A stretch of 64,000 nucleotides of DNA from a virus: IMG/VR virus record IMGVR_UViG_3300037297_000231, positions 1-64,000 of that record. One strand, 5' to 3'. The position numbers were made by a program, and so were the translations under genes. This document shows positions 3,449 through 63,115 of the stretch, piece by piece (within the stretch, counting starts at the first letter, position 1; the number at the start of each line of letters is the position of its first letter). The notes beneath the pieces were generated by a model, which searched no databases, had not been told where the DNA came from, and worked only from the letters and a program-made list of their open reading frames with translations.

Positions 3449-3478
3449 TTGACAAATAATCCTTAATTATTGTATAGT
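3449..3478 (+). promoter_or_regulatory. sigma70-type promoter with start codon five bases after the -10 box
   Basis: TTGACA (3449-3454), 18-bp spacer, TATAGT (3473-3478). The ATG of the following gene is at 3484, so the predicted transcript again begins at or beside the start codon without room for a ribosome binding site. Confidence 0.6.
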
Positions 3479-3483
3479 GAATT

Positions 3484-3699
3484 ATGGCAAAAAAGAAAAA
3501 AGCACCAAAAAAGACTAAAAGAATAAGAAAGAAAAGAAAAAAGATTGAAGAAAAAGTCATAACATATCCATTAATATGTGAAGCATGTGGAAAAGAAAAG
3601 AAATCATTTCGTAAAATAGTAGCAAGTCATATTTATTGTTCTATATGCATTAACAAAAATAATCGGAGAAATCAGAAAAACGTTTTATATTTTAGATAA
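3484..3699 (+). CDS. basic zinc-ribbon-like protein, 71 aa
   Basis: The first 25 residues are almost all Lys/Arg, then CEAC and CSIC pairs form a four-cysteine zinc-binding motif. Nucleic-acid binding is the natural inference. No Shine-Dalgarno sequence precedes the ATG and a promoter lies directly upstream, so leaderless expression is predicted. It sits between terminase and portal. Family not recognised. Confidence 0.65.
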   Translation: MAKKKKAPKKTKRIRKKRKKIEEKVITYPLICEACGKEKKSFRKIVASHIYCSICINKNNRRNQKNVLYFR

Positions 3700-8343: not shown

Positions 8344-8480
8344 TGGCAATAAAAAAACGAATATTAGTTTATCGGAAGAAAAAACCGAAAGTGAATTCTG
8401 ATTCAAATAAGATGAAATTGACAGATGCAAAAAACTTTGACAAAGAAAGTGATAATATTTATAATAAGAAATGCGAATAA
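8343..8480 (+). CDS. small basic protein, 45 aa
   Basis: Starts on the TAATG of the previous stop and overlaps the following head-morphogenesis ATG by ten bases. The N-terminus is Lys/Arg rich. Not recognised; supported by the coupled overlaps on both sides. Confidence 0.5.
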   Translation: MAIKKRILVYRKKKPKVNSDSNKMKLTDAKNFDKESDNIYNKKCE

Positions 8481-9500: not shown

Positions 9501-9528
9501 TTGACAAATAAAAATATTGCAGTATAAT
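9501..9528 (+). promoter_or_regulatory. consensus promoter for pseudoknot RNA 1
   Basis: TTGACA (9501-9506), 16-bp spacer, TATAAT (9523-9528). The first strand of the RNA element begins at 9536, seven bases after the -10 box, i.e. at the expected transcription start. Confidence 0.8.
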
Positions 9529-9535
9529 CTATATT

Positions 9536-9609
9536 AACTGCGAGAAAAAGACTTTTTGACAGGGTTAAATGGGCAGCTCGCAGTTCCCATCCTTCAGAAA
9601 GTCTTTTTT
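9536..9609 (+). ncRNA. pseudoknot-layout terminator RNA, copy 1
   Basis: Stem 1 pairs AACTGCGAG (9536-9544) with CTCGCAGTT (9577-9585), nine perfect pairs. Stem 2 pairs 9545-9559 (AAAAAGACTTTTTGA) with 9594-9608, fifteen pairs with one T-G. An inner helix brackets the second stem-1 strand: AGG/CCT and TGGG (9570-9573)/CCCA (9586-9589). The strands are interleaved, so this is a pseudoknot layout. A six-T run (9604-9609) makes stem 2 a terminator. It has its own promoter and ends five bases before a tRNA-like gene. Confidence 0.75.
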
Positions 9610-9614
9610 ATTAT

Positions 9615-9716
9615 GGGCTTTTAGTAATAATGGTCGAACGCTTTATAAAACATGAAGGGTGATTCATGATAAACCTGTTATATAAAGAGATGTGGGTTCG
9701 ATTCCCACGGAGCCCG
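9615..9716 (+). tRNA. tRNA-like RNA with 33-nt loop in place of an anticodon loop
   Basis: Acceptor strands GGGCTTT (9615-9621) and GGAGCCC (9709-9715), a perfect T arm GTGGG-TTCGATT-CCCAC (9692-9708) and GG in the D loop. A seven-pair stem CTTTATA (9641-9647)/TATAAAG (9681-9687) occupies the anticodon-stem position, but its loop is 33 nt. That loop holds its own hairpin CATGAA/TTCATG, with no 7-nt anticodon loop. Either an aberrant tRNA or a tRNA mimic; no bacterial intron type fits. Confidence 0.6.
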
Positions 9717-9734
9717 ATTTTAAGGAGAGGTAGA

Positions 9735-10326: not shown

Positions 10327-10509
10327 ATGAGTAAATGGTACACTGCACAAAAAGATTTTATTGAACTTAATGATGATAATATAGATATATATGTTTGTAA
10401 TGACTATGATGGAAGCATATATATACAAGTGCCAATGAAAATATTAAAAGAAGTTTTGCAAGAAAGAAATAAAATAACAAAAGAACTTTTAGAGGAGTTA
10501 AAAAAATGA
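10327..10509 (+). CDS. small hypothetical protein, 60 aa
   Basis: AAGGAGAAATAAA site; overlaps the next ATG by four bases. Acidic N-terminal half, charged helical C-terminus. Not recognised. Confidence 0.6.
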   Translation: MSKWYTAQKDFIELNDDNIDIYVCNDYDGSIYIQVPMKILKEVLQERNKITKELLEELKK

Positions 10510-48390: not shown

Positions 48391-48420
48391 TTGACAAATA
48401 TTCAACGGTTTTAGTATGAT
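48391..48420 (+). promoter_or_regulatory. promoter of the tRNA / pseudoknot cluster
   Basis: TTGACA (48391-48396), 18-bp spacer, TATGAT (48415-48420). The first tRNA begins seven bases downstream. Confidence 0.7.
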
Positions 48421-48426
48421 GTCATT

Positions 48427-48499
48427 TGTAGGTGAGTGAAACGGTTTACACGCTAGTCTCATAAGCTAGAAATATTGGGTTCGACTCCCATACCCGCAA
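48427..48499 (+). tRNA. tRNA with CAT anticodon (Met or Ile2)
   Basis: 73 nt. Acceptor TGTAGGT/ACCCGCA with one A-C mismatch, D stem GTG/CAC with GG in the loop, anticodon stem CTAGT/GCTAG with loop CTCATAA, T loop TTCGACT. Position 8 is G, not the usual T, and the first T-stem pair is T-T. Could be elongator Met, initiator or lysidine-dependent Ile. Confidence 0.78.
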
Positions 48500-48504
48500 A
48501 TAAA

Positions 48505-48585
48505 GATCGGCAGGATAAGGCTTTTATTAATTTGTGTGTAAGTTTTCTGCCGATCACTTATACCTTTTTGATAAAAGCCTTTTTT
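48505..48585 (+). ncRNA. pseudoknot-layout terminator RNA, copy 2 (inside tRNA cluster)
   Basis: Stem 1: GATCGGCAG (48505-48513)/CTGCCGATC (48547-48555), nine perfect pairs. Stem 2: AAGGCTTTTATTAA (48517-48530)/TTGATAAAAGCCTT (48568-48581), one wobble. Inner helix: GTGTAAGT (48536-48543)/ACTTATAC (48556-48563). T-run 48580-48585. It lies between tRNA(CAT) and the next tRNA, which starts three bases after the T-run. Confidence 0.78.
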
Positions 48586-48587
48586 AT

Positions 48588-48753: not shown

Positions 48754-49185
48754 ATGATGCAGATATTTTGTCCAAATAAAAATACTATATATATTGCGGA
48801 TATACTTGATAAAAAAAGGAGGAATAAACAAATATTAGAAATATGTCAATTATTATCAACTATATTAAATATAGATATAGGCTGGAAAATACCTAAATAC
48901 ATTAAAAACCATCCTACAACTAAATTATATAATAGTAGCGAAGGTATTATGTATTTAGTTGATTTTTTATTTTATTTATTATATGCATATAAAAAAAATA
49001 ATAAAAAATATAGAAGTCATAAATGTGAAAAAATATTTATAAAATATTTTAATAAATATCATGTATTATTCATATCTTTTGAAAATGATTGGAGACCTAA
49101 ACATTTAAATAATAATTTTTATAAAAAACATCAACAACTATTACTAGAAAAAGATTACGAATATTACAGTAAATATTTTTGTTGA
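48754..49185 (+). CDS. basic hypothetical protein, 143 aa
   Basis: AAGGAGAA before two adjacent ATGs (48754, 48757). Lys/Tyr/Asn rich, helical. Its last codons overlap the -35 box of the next RNA promoter. Not recognised. Confidence 0.58.
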   Translation: MMQIFCPNKNTIYIADILDKKRRNKQILEICQLLSTILNIDIGWKIPKYIKNHPTTKLYNSSEGIMYLVDFLFYLLYAYKKNNKKYRSHKCEKIFIKYFNKYHVLFISFENDWRPKHLNNNFYKKHQQLLLEKDYEYYSKYFC

Positions 49186-49209
49186 CAAATTGAAAAAATA
49201 TTATAATAT
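49182..49209 (+). promoter_or_regulatory. promoter for pseudoknot RNA 3
   Basis: TTGACA (49182-49187), 16-bp spacer, TAATAT (49204-49209); TATAAT overlaps at 49202-49207. Stem 1 starts eight bases after the -10 box. Confidence 0.75.
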
Positions 49210-49217
49210 GTTTGGTA

Positions 49218-49299
49218 TCGGACAGAATGAAAAGCCTCTTATTAGGGGGTGTTAGGTCTCTGTCCGAGCCTTTCATCTCTCTAATAAGGGGCTTTTTTT
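49218..49299 (+). ncRNA. pseudoknot-layout terminator RNA, copy 3
   Basis: Stem 1: TCGGACAGA (49218-49226)/TCTGTCCGA (49259-49267), nine perfect pairs. Stem 2: AAAAGCCTCTTATTAG (49230-49245)/CTAATAAGGGGCTTTT (49281-49296), one wobble. Inner helix: GGGTG/CATCT and AGG/CCT around a TT/TT loop. Seven T (49293-49299), then the ribosome binding site of the replication gene. Own promoter. Confidence 0.78.
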
Positions 49300-49318: not shown

Positions 49319-50188
49319 GTGGAAGTAAATAAACAAACTGAATTTCAGAAAACAAATAATGAAACATTCAAAATTGAGACTTATGAGCCAATTAAACAAG
49401 AAATAGATCAATTTGATTTTTTAGAGAATCAATTAGTTATATTAAGTAAGGAAACAATAGAAAAGTTTTTACAATATAGCAATGCTTCAGATTTGATAGG
49501 TCTTTATACTTTTTATTATTATACTGCAAAATGGCAAAAAACAAATCAACCTAAATGTACGGATACTTATTGTGTGAAAGGCTTAAAATGGAGTAAAACA
49601 AAATTTTATAAAGCAAAAAAAATTTTAAAAGATATAGGTCTTATACAAAATATTAAACGGATAAATAAAGAAAATAAAGTTGTTGGTTGGTATGTAAGAA
49701 TTAATTATATATGGTCAAAAAATAAAACAGATATTATCCAGAGTCCCAAAATCAAGACAGTGGAAAATCAAGACAGTGGAAAATTAGACACAAATGCTTT
49801 AAGTGTTAATACTATAAATGCTTTAAGTGTTAATAAAAAAACAATTAAAAATAATTATAATGATTATAAAATTATTTATAATAATGTTTTATTAAAAATT
49901 TATACACAAGAACAAATAAATAACTTGATATATAAATCAAATAAACAACTTAAACAGCTATCTTTATTGTTAAATAAATTTAAATCTATTGAAGAATGTA
50001 AATTATTTTTTTATATTGCATTTAAAAATAAATGGTTAAAAGATAATGGTTTTTTACCTGCTTTAATAAATGGGAGTTATGATAACATAAAAGCACAACA
50101 AATTTTAAATAAAAAAAATATCAATAGTTATGAAAAAGTTATTATCCCTGACGAAGTTAAAAAATCATTCCAGGAGTCATGGCTTTGA
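49319..50188 (+). CDS. replication initiator-like protein (winged helix)
   Basis: 289 aa, GTG start behind AAGGAGTTAAAAA. Residues about 50-130 (SNASDLIGLYTFYYYTAKWQ...LKWSKTKFYKAKKILKDIGLIQNI) resemble winged-helix DNA-binding domains of phage initiators and DnaD-like proteins. The next gene, overlapping by ten bases, is the helicase it would load. Confidence 0.7.
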   Translation: MEVNKQTEFQKTNNETFKIETYEPIKQEIDQFDFLENQLVILSKETIEKFLQYSNASDLIGLYTFYYYTAKWQKTNQPKCTDTYCVKGLKWSKTKFYKAKKILKDIGLIQNIKRINKENKVVGWYVRINYIWSKNKTDIIQSPKIKTVENQDSGKLDTNALSVNTINALSVNKKTIKNNYNDYKIIYNNVLLKIYTQEQINNLIYKSNKQLKQLSLLLNKFKSIEECKLFFYIAFKNKWLKDNGFLPALINGSYDNIKAQQILNKKNINSYEKVIIPDEVKKSFQESWL

Positions 50189-51700: not shown

Positions 51701-51787
51701 AGATATAGCAGGTTTCCTCCTCAAAGATTTAACTGCTATTATCTAATTTTATAAGTGAGGGGGTTTTTTAAAGACTTTCCCCCTCAC
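51701..51787 (+). ncRNA. pseudoknot-layout terminator RNA, copy 4, with alternative hairpin
   Basis: Stem 1: AGATATAGCAG (51701-51711)/CTGCTAT-T-ATCT (51733-51744), eleven pairs with one bulge. Stem 2: CCTCCTCA (51716-51723)/TGAGGGGG (51756-51763), followed by six T. The same GTGAGGGGG (51755-51763) can pair instead with CCCCCTCAC (51779-51787), nine perfect pairs. The two uses of the G-run exclude each other. No clear promoter upstream. Confidence 0.62.
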
Positions 51788-52001: not shown

Positions 52002-52153
52002 GGCAGAGTGGCGGAATAGGTAGACGCTTAGTTGGGAACTGCATATGATTGGCTATCTTTAAATGCAAGTGTCATGCAAGGTGACTATACGAATTACAGG
52101 AAACGCCACGCTATCGTGGAGCAGTTACTTTCGGCAAATCCTTGCCTCTGCCT
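52002..52153 (+). ncRNA. 152-nt tRNA-Leu-like RNA with expanded body
   Basis: GGCAGAG (52002-52008) pairs with CTCTGCC (52146-52152). Then TG and a perfect Leu-type D arm GCG-GAATAGGTAGA-CGC. There is no anticodon arm. AACTGC and GCAGTT pair at long range, with CCACG-CTAT-CGTGG inside. The T-arm position has GGCAA-ATCC-TTGCC, a tetraloop, so the T loop is missing. A normal tRNA-Leu is about 85 nt. Confidence 0.6.
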
Positions 52154-52174
52154 ATTATATAAAAAGGATATAGT

Positions 52175-56451: not shown

Positions 56452-56475
56452 AAAATTTGAAAATTGAGTTATACT
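56448..56475 (+). promoter_or_regulatory. promoter for pseudoknot RNA 5
   Basis: TTGAAA (56448-56453), 16-bp spacer, TATACT (56470-56475). Stem 1 begins eight bases after the -10 box, as in copies 1 and 3. Confidence 0.6.
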
Positions 56476-56483
56476 TATTAATA

Positions 56484-56563
56484 GATCGAAGATAAGGAAG
56501 GCTTTAGTAAAAGAGTTTAAACCGGCTTACTTCGATCGGCCGGCTCTTTTATTAAAGCCTTTC
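56484..56563 (+). ncRNA. pseudoknot-layout terminator RNA, copy 5
   Basis: Stem 1: GATCGAAG (56484-56491)/CTTCGATC (56530-56537), eight pairs. Stem 2: 56498-56515 (AAGGCTTTAGTAAAAGAG) with 56544-56561, eighteen pairs with one G-T, extendable by two. Inner helix: CCGGC (56522-56526)/GCCGG (56539-56543) stacked on stem 2. Only three T follow. Stem 1 differs from copy 2 (GATCGGCAG/CTGCCGATC) by paired changes on both strands. Confidence 0.75.
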
Positions 56564-59983: not shown

Positions 59984-60044
59984 TTGTTATACAAGCAGAA
60001 TGGCGGTGATGGCGATGTTAATTCCGTTATATTATGATATCTAA
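59907..60044 (+). CDS. 45-aa hydrophobic peptide with sequestered start
   Basis: ATG seven bases after AAGGAG. The frame codes for a hydrophobic N-terminal half (AFILLLIFSNFFMIIPF) and ends inside the tRNA-like RNA. The AAGGAG lies in the 5' arm of stem 2 of copy 6 and the ATG in stem 1, so both would be masked when the RNA folds. Small hydrophobic peptides with masked starts recall type I toxins; this is inference. Confidence 0.4.
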   Translation: MAFILLLIFSNFFMIIPFNNFSPYPFCYTSRMAVMAMLIPLYYDI

Positions 60045-60137
60045 TTATAAACATGCTAAATGACATCCAAAATTATATGTTGAGTCGACTAGGCATATAT
60101 AGAGCTATAAGTCTTCGGGCTTATATCTGCTTGTATA
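59988..60137 (+). ncRNA. 150-nt tRNA-like RNA with 12-bp end stem and UUCG arm
   Basis: TATACAAGCAGA (59988-59999) pairs with TCTGCTTGTATA (60126-60137), twelve perfect pairs. AT and a D-arm-like GGCGGTGATGGCG follow, as in tRNA-Leu/Ser. The T-arm position has TATAAGTC-TTCG-GGCTTATA (60106-60125), an eight-pair stem with a UUCG tetraloop instead of a T loop. About 85 nt between them contain no anticodon arm. Confidence 0.6.
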
Positions 60138-60158
60138 ATTTATATAAGGAGTTGAATT

Positions 60159-60437: not shown

Positions 60438-60466
60438 TTGTAATAAAAACAAAATTAACGTATAAT
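60438..60466 (+). promoter_or_regulatory. promoter with start codon eight bases after the -10 box
   Basis: TTGTAA (60438-60443), 17-bp spacer, TATAAT (60461-60466). The next ATG is at 60475 and no Shine-Dalgarno sequence precedes it, so a leader of only one or two bases is predicted. Confidence 0.62.
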
Positions 60467-60474
60467 AAACAACA

Positions 60475-60666
60475 ATGTTAGAACAACTAGCACATATCAA
60501 ACAAAATAATCAAATCACAAATATAAGTAAAGAAGTTTGTTTCAATTGCTATAAAGATATTTTATCTTTTTATAGTATTCTTTTAAAAAGAATGAGTAAA
60601 GGTGAAAGTGTTTATAATAATTGCCACAAATGTGGTAAATATGAAAAAACAATTATTGAGGATTAA
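60475..60666 (+). CDS. four-cysteine protein, 63 aa (leaderless candidate)
   Basis: CFNC and CHKC pairs suggest a zinc site. Third gene in the window whose start codon directly follows a promoter. Not recognised. Confidence 0.58.
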   Translation: MLEQLAHIKQNNQITNISKEVCFNCYKDILSFYSILLKRMSKGESVYNNCHKCGKYEKTIIED

Positions 60667-62151: not shown

Positions 62152-62388
62152 ATGAAGAAAAAGGATTTTATGATTATTTGTATTCTTTATGTTTTAGTAG
62201 GAATAGCATATTTAATTCTTTTATTCATGTTTATGTGGATTCTCAAGATTACTATTGATGCTGGTGAGATAGGGCGAACATTATTCATTAGTTTTACAAT
62301 TTCTTGGTATATTTTTGGACTTATTTATTTTACTATTAAAATTATTAAATTATTTAAAAAATTAAAGTTAAAGGAGAATAAAGAATGA
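62152..62388 (+). CDS. two-span membrane protein, 78 aa (full copy)
   Basis: AAAGGAGAATAA site. Two hydrophobic segments (FMIICILYVLVGIAYLILLFMFMWIL and LFISFTISWYIFGLIYFTIKII) and a Lys-rich tail. Its last 127 bases before divergence are the repeat also found at the window start. Confidence 0.68.
   Translation: MKKKDFMIICILYVLVGIAYLILLFMFMWILKITIDAGEIGRTLFISFTISWYIFGLIYFTIKIIKLFKKLKLKENKE
62256..62382. repeat. 127-bp exact direct repeat, copy 2
   Basis: Identical to 1-127. Upstream context exists only here; downstream sequence differs after 62382 (gaatgaaag against tgaaaagg). Confidence 0.95.
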
Positions 62389-62978: not shown

Positions 62979-63092
62979 GTTGCTATGTGGTGGAATAGAG
63001 ACACACTTTAATTAAATTTTCGAATACGAAAACGGGGGCTGATGGGTGGAGACTAATCAGCCGTGCAAGTATCGAATCTTGCCATAGCAACT
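62979..63092 (+). ncRNA. 114-nt tRNA-like RNA with nine-pair acceptor stem
   Basis: GTTGCTATG (62979-62987) pairs with CATAGCAAC (63083-63091), nine pairs where tRNAs have seven. A Leu-like D region TGGTGGAATAGAGACACA follows, then hairpin TTTTCG-AATA-CGAAAA at the anticodon-arm position and a seven-pair variable-arm-like hairpin GGCTGAT/ATCAGCC. The T arm is GCAAG-TATCGAAT-CTTGC with an eight-base loop. No 7-nt anticodon loop. Confidence 0.6.
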
Positions 63093-63115
63093 ATTATTAT
63101 ATATGAGGTGAAAGA

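Follow-up and report, generated by a model that had tools for sequence, protein, structure and literature searches.

The window (the whole stretch of 64,000 nt analysed here, from a virus record in IMG/VR that is 64,043 bases long and carries portal, head, tail sheath and DnaB genes) contains several copies of an RNA element in which a leader segment is complementary to the loop of a terminator hairpin downstream. Judged from its sequence and placement, the element probably acts as a promoter-proximal conditional terminator, that is, an attenuator gated by pairing between the leader and the loop. The original prediction, an RNA repeated in the genome in which a 5' pairing would rival an intrinsic terminator, is supported by the analysis, and an attenuator is the best reading of it. 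The window also holds an exact direct repeat of 127 bp (1-127 and 62256-62382), located near both ends of the record and not at the very end.

The copy at 9536-9609 is built from three helices: S1, which forms a pseudoknot; S2, the terminator stem; and an inner hairpin, S3 (Table 1). A consensus promoter, a nine-pair helix with its partner in the loop of the terminator, a fifteen-pair stem ending in six T and a 0-nt linker between the two 5' strands (S1 ends at 9544 and S2 begins at 9545) had all been described beforehand, and all were found as described. That two-helix account was nonetheless incomplete, as it lacked S3, whose 12-nt apical loop carries the 3' strand of S1. The third helix matters because the 3' strand of S1 is displayed within a hairpin loop at every site in the window.

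Table 1. Elements, promoters and tRNA-like genes in the window
Feature	Coordinates	Strand	Details
sigma70-type promoter	9501..9528	+	TTGACA-16-TATAAT; scores 12/12; expected start 9535/9536
9536 element, S1 5' strand	9536..9544	+	AACTGCGAG; at expected RNA 5' end
9536 element, S2 5' strand (terminator stem)	9545..9559	+	AAAAAGACTTTTTGA
9536 element, S3 inner hairpin	9569..9590	+	ATGGG-[CAGCTCGCAGTT]-CCCAT; ATGGG 9569-9573 / CCCAT 9586-9590
9536 element, S1 3' strand	9577..9585	+	CTCGCAGTT; 9 bp with AACTGCGAG (pseudoknot)
9536 element, S2 3' strand and T run	9594..9609	+	TCAGAAAGTCTTTTT 9594-9608; six T at 9604-9609
tRNA-Asn(GTT)-like gene	9614..9717	+	28-nt insert in anticodon loop; missing from relative
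Promoter of tRNA operon	48391..48420	+	TTGACA-18-TATGAT
tRNA-Met(CAT)-like gene, upstream of 48505 element	48426..48500	+	
Second element	48505..48585	+	S1 GATCGGCAG 48505-48513 / CTGCCGATC 48547-48555; S2 48517-48530 / 48568-48581; S3 48536-48543 / 48556-48563; T tract
Promoter of third element	49182..49209	+	TTGACA-16-TAATAT; TATAAT at spacing 14; from sequence
Third element	49218..49299	+	S1 TCGGACAGA 49218-49226 / TCTGTCCGA 49259-49267; S2 49229-49249 / 49277-49297; S3 AGGT/GCCT; T tract
Weaker fifth element, end of helicase operon	51705..51769	+	S1 ATAGCAG 51705-51711 / CTGCTAT 51733-51739; S2 51716-51723 / 51756-51763; S3 AGAT/ATCT
Fourth element	56484..56563	+	S1 GATCGAAG 56484-56491 / CTTCGATC 56530-56537; S2 56498-56515 / 56544-56561; S3 56522-56527 / 56538-56543

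The full design is present at four sites (9536, 48505, 49218 and 56484), each of which precedes genes or tRNAs with no intervening promoter, and the expected +1 approximately coincides with the start of S1 at three sites in the window. At 9536 and 49218, the terminator hairpin and its U tract lie between a promoter and the first gene. The 49218 copy sits before a replication gene pair, an ORF without assignment at 49319 followed by DnaB at 50179, and the 56484 copy, which has all three helices, a weak T tract (TTTC) and a -10 box TATACT at 56470-56475, also precedes an ORF. The 48505 copy lies inside a tRNA operon, just before a tRNA-Leu that begins at 48587; downstream of this element, a relative read on the reverse strand (L006) carries about 220 extra bases with more tRNA genes between two tRNA-Leu genes. 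No promoter was seen for the weaker 51705 copy, and its location fits an ordinary terminator. Of the six loci proposed at first, these five hold, and 59863 was dropped: its 9-bp S1 gave p=0.014 when linkers of up to 40 nt were allowed (p=0.86 when the permitted linker was too short), but the pairing is lost in a relative. The sequence of S1 differs at every site in the window, and a common DNA-binding site was rejected on that basis. Separately, -10 boxes stand 5-8 nt before an ATG at 1433-1468, 3449-3484, 8437-8471 and 60438-60476, an arrangement that suggests leaderless mRNAs, one of them from the Mu F-like gene at 8471; elsewhere this phage relies on AAGGAG sites.

The pairing exceeds what chance produces. 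In a scan of the window for S1, S2 and a U tract together, the combined scores were -53.1 (49218), -42.0 (48505) and -39.7 (9536), compared with -33.8 for the best of ten shuffled windows. When S1 alone was scored given each terminator, p was 0.0004 (48505), 0.00085 (49218), 0.0014 (9536), 0.005 (56484) and 0.024 (51705). A separate test asked for a U-rich tail behind a hairpin whose loop, 6-13 nt long, is matched upstream by a perfect complement of 7 nt; the + strand of the window returned eight such places, including all five elements, compared with 4 on the minus strand and 0-4 in shuffles. Each S1 pairs with its own loop at -12 to -22 kcal/mol, versus about -4 to -11 for other combinations.

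We found one near relative of the window sequence, IMGVR_UViG_3300035138_000104, in which the copies of the 9536, 48505, 49218 and 56484 elements show 0-1 changes inside the element (at 9536, one substitution, in a loop), against a divergence of a few per cent in the sequence around them. The relative's 51705 copy has one mismatch in S2. After the 9536 element the relative lacks both the tRNA-like gene and a YopX gene and continues immediately with an ORF that starts near window position 10327, and after the 56484 copy it has another ORF; as far as the two sequences can tell, the genes behind the element change and the element itself stays. The tRNA-like gene is therefore best placed outside the element, its fusion to the 9536 copy being incidental, since the gene is absent from the relative while the element persists. 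The idea that the attenuator specifically gates the tRNA-like RNA did not survive this comparison, the more so as the 49218 and 56484 copies precede ORFs. The gene itself scores 29.2 bits against the Rfam tRNA model (cut-off 29), does not fold into a cloverleaf with a normal anticodon loop, and is called tRNA-Asn(GTT) by ARAGORN only when the 28-nt anticodon-loop insert is allowed (intron mode); this insert can itself fold into a hairpin. Three other tRNA-like segments (52003-52155, 59990-60140 and 62980-63095) have complementary ends and oversized middles and are rejected by both ARAGORN and Rfam; where the window has 59990-60140, the relative carries a tRNA of ordinary appearance.

As the 49218 copy lies between a promoter and the ORF-DnaB pair, we examined the regions upstream of DnaB in other phages. 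In L019, whose portal is 48% identical, a promoter and a terminator with S1 CCAGCTA/TAGCTGG are followed by a Lin1244-type initiator and DnaB; L133 has the same layout with S1 AAACACGCA/TGTGTGTTT; and L172 has a TAnnTTTG-type promoter and S1 AGCCACCA/TGGTGGCT (p=0.0016). In L301, which came from a blind search, S1 (GGGTTGACA) lies at about +1 with a 3-nt linker and a 17-bp terminator (p=0.001), as in the window form. Thus in L019, L133, L172 and L301 the layout recurs, in unrelated sequence, before an initiator and DnaB. For several of these distant sites, which were picked by score, S1 alone is weak (L019, p=0.037; L133, p=0.025; L187, p=0.026-0.028). With short linkers, the S1 test reached no overall significance when every terminator upstream of DnaB was included, and among portal relatives only L019 stood clearly above chance; the signal emerged only with longer linkers and the loop criterion. 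Under these, a terminator-type loop complementary to the leader was present upstream of DnaB in 31 of 79 loci (6.0 expected), and a leader segment complementary to a hairpin loop with a U-rich tail was found before the initiator in 46 matches versus 19 in shuffles. With a stricter hairpin cut-off, the + strand gave 18 in 78 loci upstream and 3 in 80 downstream; on the opposite strand the numbers were 11 in 80 downstream and 11 in 78 upstream, five of the latter being the same elements read backwards. A scan with S3 and no U tract was uninformative in GC-rich contigs (2359 matches versus about 1860 by chance). Among genome contigs there were only five MAG-binned portal relatives, none with an accepted element. 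The matches in L192 are repeats in a GC-rich contig, and those in L163, L131 and similar single matches were left out as likely chance.

A larger family came from a search with one initiator protein, blind to RNA, that yielded 75 contigs. By our own count, leader and loop are complementary over 7 nt or more in 68 of these, representing ~22 distinct leaders, and seven lack the pairing. In the commonest form, the 7-nt loop of a 5' hairpin kisses a complementary 7-nt terminator loop: in an example from the best group, the 5' hairpin TGAGT-GTCGGAT-ACTCA faces CCCCCA-ATCCGAC-TGGGGG, the latter inside a short terminator stem (GCCC/GGGC) with a U tract, and the ATG of the initiator follows within a few bases. 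Across ten distinct leaders, 99.1% of cells are paired, a percentage inflated by rows that were cut by hand to the structure and chosen because they pair; the real evidence is the double-sided changes at homologous positions. Of 22 pairs, 19 have changed on both sides (62 such cells), among them six of the seven pairs of the kissing helix; none of 500 shuffles scored as high, and slid structures were near background. An earlier set of five leaders gave the same picture. In L125 and L154 the leader-loop pair shows a compensatory change from TACGACC/GGTCGTA to TGAGACC/GGTCTCA. Rather than homologues that keep the primary sequence and neither stem, we thus see the opposite: in many phages the layout persists although the sequence has turned over completely. 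The sites in the window do not have the 5' hairpin used for loop-loop kissing in the covarying set. The L301 element directly precedes an initiator of the L107 type and so links the window and kissing forms by gene context, not by sequence; common descent of the two is left as putative. That all of these are ordinary terminators combined with chance or DNA-level inverted repeats is barely credible: such terminators are common before genes and some of the p values at distant sites are modest, but the combined p of the window sites, the covariation in ten leaders, for which slid controls stayed close to background, and the presence of the pairing in 68 of 75 sequences fetched regardless of it all argue otherwise.

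Among cultured phages, Polaribacter phage P12002L apparently carries the design too, by inspection of its fold: GTAG-[GGTCGTAG]-CTAC is followed by CCTATTCT-TGA-AGAG-[CCTACGAC]-CTCT-GAT-AGAATAGG, nine T and a primosomal gene. The element occupies about 34462-34389 on the minus strand of NC_028924.1. This fold was read by eye; when S1 was tested automatically, a pairing that differs a little from it scored p=0.019. A comparable candidate is present in Danklef_1 (p=0.03). Of ten initiator loci from cultured phages or plasmids, most leave no space before the initiator, and the two Polaribacter phages alone show candidates; no DNA similarity to the L107 leader was found among cultured phages.

These observations suggest how the element may work. 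Polymerase would start at or just before S1 and make in order the 5' strand of S1, the 5' strand of S2, the S3 hairpin, the 3' strand of S2 and the U tract. With its 3' strand presented in the loop of S3, S1 could form before S2 is complete, and this would set how often the terminator wins. Expression downstream would need read-through, because no promoter separates the U tract from the gene or tRNA that starts right behind it; this need favours attenuation rather than a plain terminator or a free-standing small RNA. It is plausible on geometric grounds that S1 and the full S2 are hard to hold together in the window elements, in which linkers are 0-4 nt or so and S2 covers 14-21 positions. We infer that termination does occur and that in the window form S1 holds the base of S2 open and favours read-through, so that anything occupying S1 would favour stopping. 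In the kissing form, in which the linker is longer and S2 shorter, S1 and S2 could coexist, and the pairing might stabilise the terminator.

Two other readings of the same anatomy seem to us less convincing than attenuation. If S1 masked the 5' end of a stable small RNA and shielded it from decay, the short RNA would be the product and read-through incidental; the strong terminators and the position of S1 at about +1 in three window sites would suit this, but it is very unlikely, given that the paired segment of the kissing form lies inside the 5' hairpin, some nucleotides past the -7 box and not at the extreme 5' end, that the 48505 copy comes after a tRNA, and that the next gene lies directly past the U tract in nearly all cases. 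Control by a ribosome translating a leader peptide is suggested by short ORFs that run through the terminator in some members, including an open frame across the terminator at 49228 (MKSLLLGGVRSLSEPFISLIRGFFYF) and another in L172 (translated by eye). Similar 31-aa peptides (MK..PFGQYL.A..AG....RMGFLFL, likewise translated by eye) in L125 (2490-2585) and L154 (1428-1523) run through the terminator and end at the next start codon, with an ATGA overlap. This mode of control is nevertheless highly improbable, as no ATG precedes the terminator at 48505 or 56484, and many kissing-loop leaders have only an in-frame extension and no leader ORF of their own.

What would control the attenuator is a further question of interpretation. 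In a version that senses RNA, the terminated RNA or a further leader copy would offer its S1 5' strand and loop in trans, bind the nascent leader, block S1 in cis and raise termination, and replication operons would shut as the RNA accumulates, amounting to copy-number control or superinfection exclusion. Consistent with this, the leader-loop complementarity is exact and covarying, the pairs are specific to each element, and the elements are placed before replication genes. The kissing-form relatives also have fully complementary hairpin loops of seven nucleotides, as do RNAI and RNAII of ColE1, two RNAs from opposite strands that kiss via 7-nt loops and block the plasmid primer; here, by contrast, a single transcript carries the two loops ahead of a terminator. 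The logic is also like that of P4 CI, in which leader segments complementary within the transcript (seqA upstream, seqB in the CI RNA) cause premature termination upstream of replication genes (PMC4825925). We located the complementary segments in the P4 sequence, and here too a leader segment upstream of replication genes pairs with a downstream segment of the same transcript. P4 differs in that its antisense RNA is processed and has a target on either side, the downstream one being seqC, and in that some 190 nt separate the partners; here the distance is about 20-75 nt, and the only partner identified for the leader is the terminator hairpin's own loop; we claim no membership in the P4/C4 group. 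We consider RNA sensing doubtful, as pairing in cis accounts for the same covariation, the trans-acting small RNA and processing signal are putative, and several copies in the window precede tRNAs or small ORFs.

Pseudoknots that compete with a terminator are also a feature of preQ1-I and fluoride riboswitches and other leader attenuators. The element differs from these in that no ligand pocket or conserved core bases are seen and only the pairing is conserved; Rfam searches of the window, L133, L125, L019 and nine leader loci returned no match to C4 or any other relevant family. HK022 put is likewise a structured RNA; it lies close to an early phage promoter and alters terminator read-through, but it is described as suppressing pausing and termination and not as itself a terminator (PMC9378689), whereas the element here contains one. 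In the open-access literature that was searched, we found no description of kissing between a terminator loop and a leader in phage replication operons. The design thus appears to be a variant of transcription attenuators, an RNA switch of phage replication genes that has not been described before.

Comparably doubtful is the broader proposal of a widespread and undescribed cis-acting RNA class in phage replication operons whose terminator loop kisses the leader, counts transcripts or genomes in trans and stops the replication genes when the short RNA has built up far enough; if true, it would be an RNA copy-number or superinfection sensor. To our knowledge, detailed accounts of how phages control their replication genes exist for only a few model phages. 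The compact and strongly covarying switch seen here occurs with both sigma70-type and Bacteroidota-type promoters, and a cultured Polaribacter phage apparently has it as well; it offers a mechanism for the timing of phage DNA replication that is general and can be tested, together with a set of natural, element-specific RNA attenuators.
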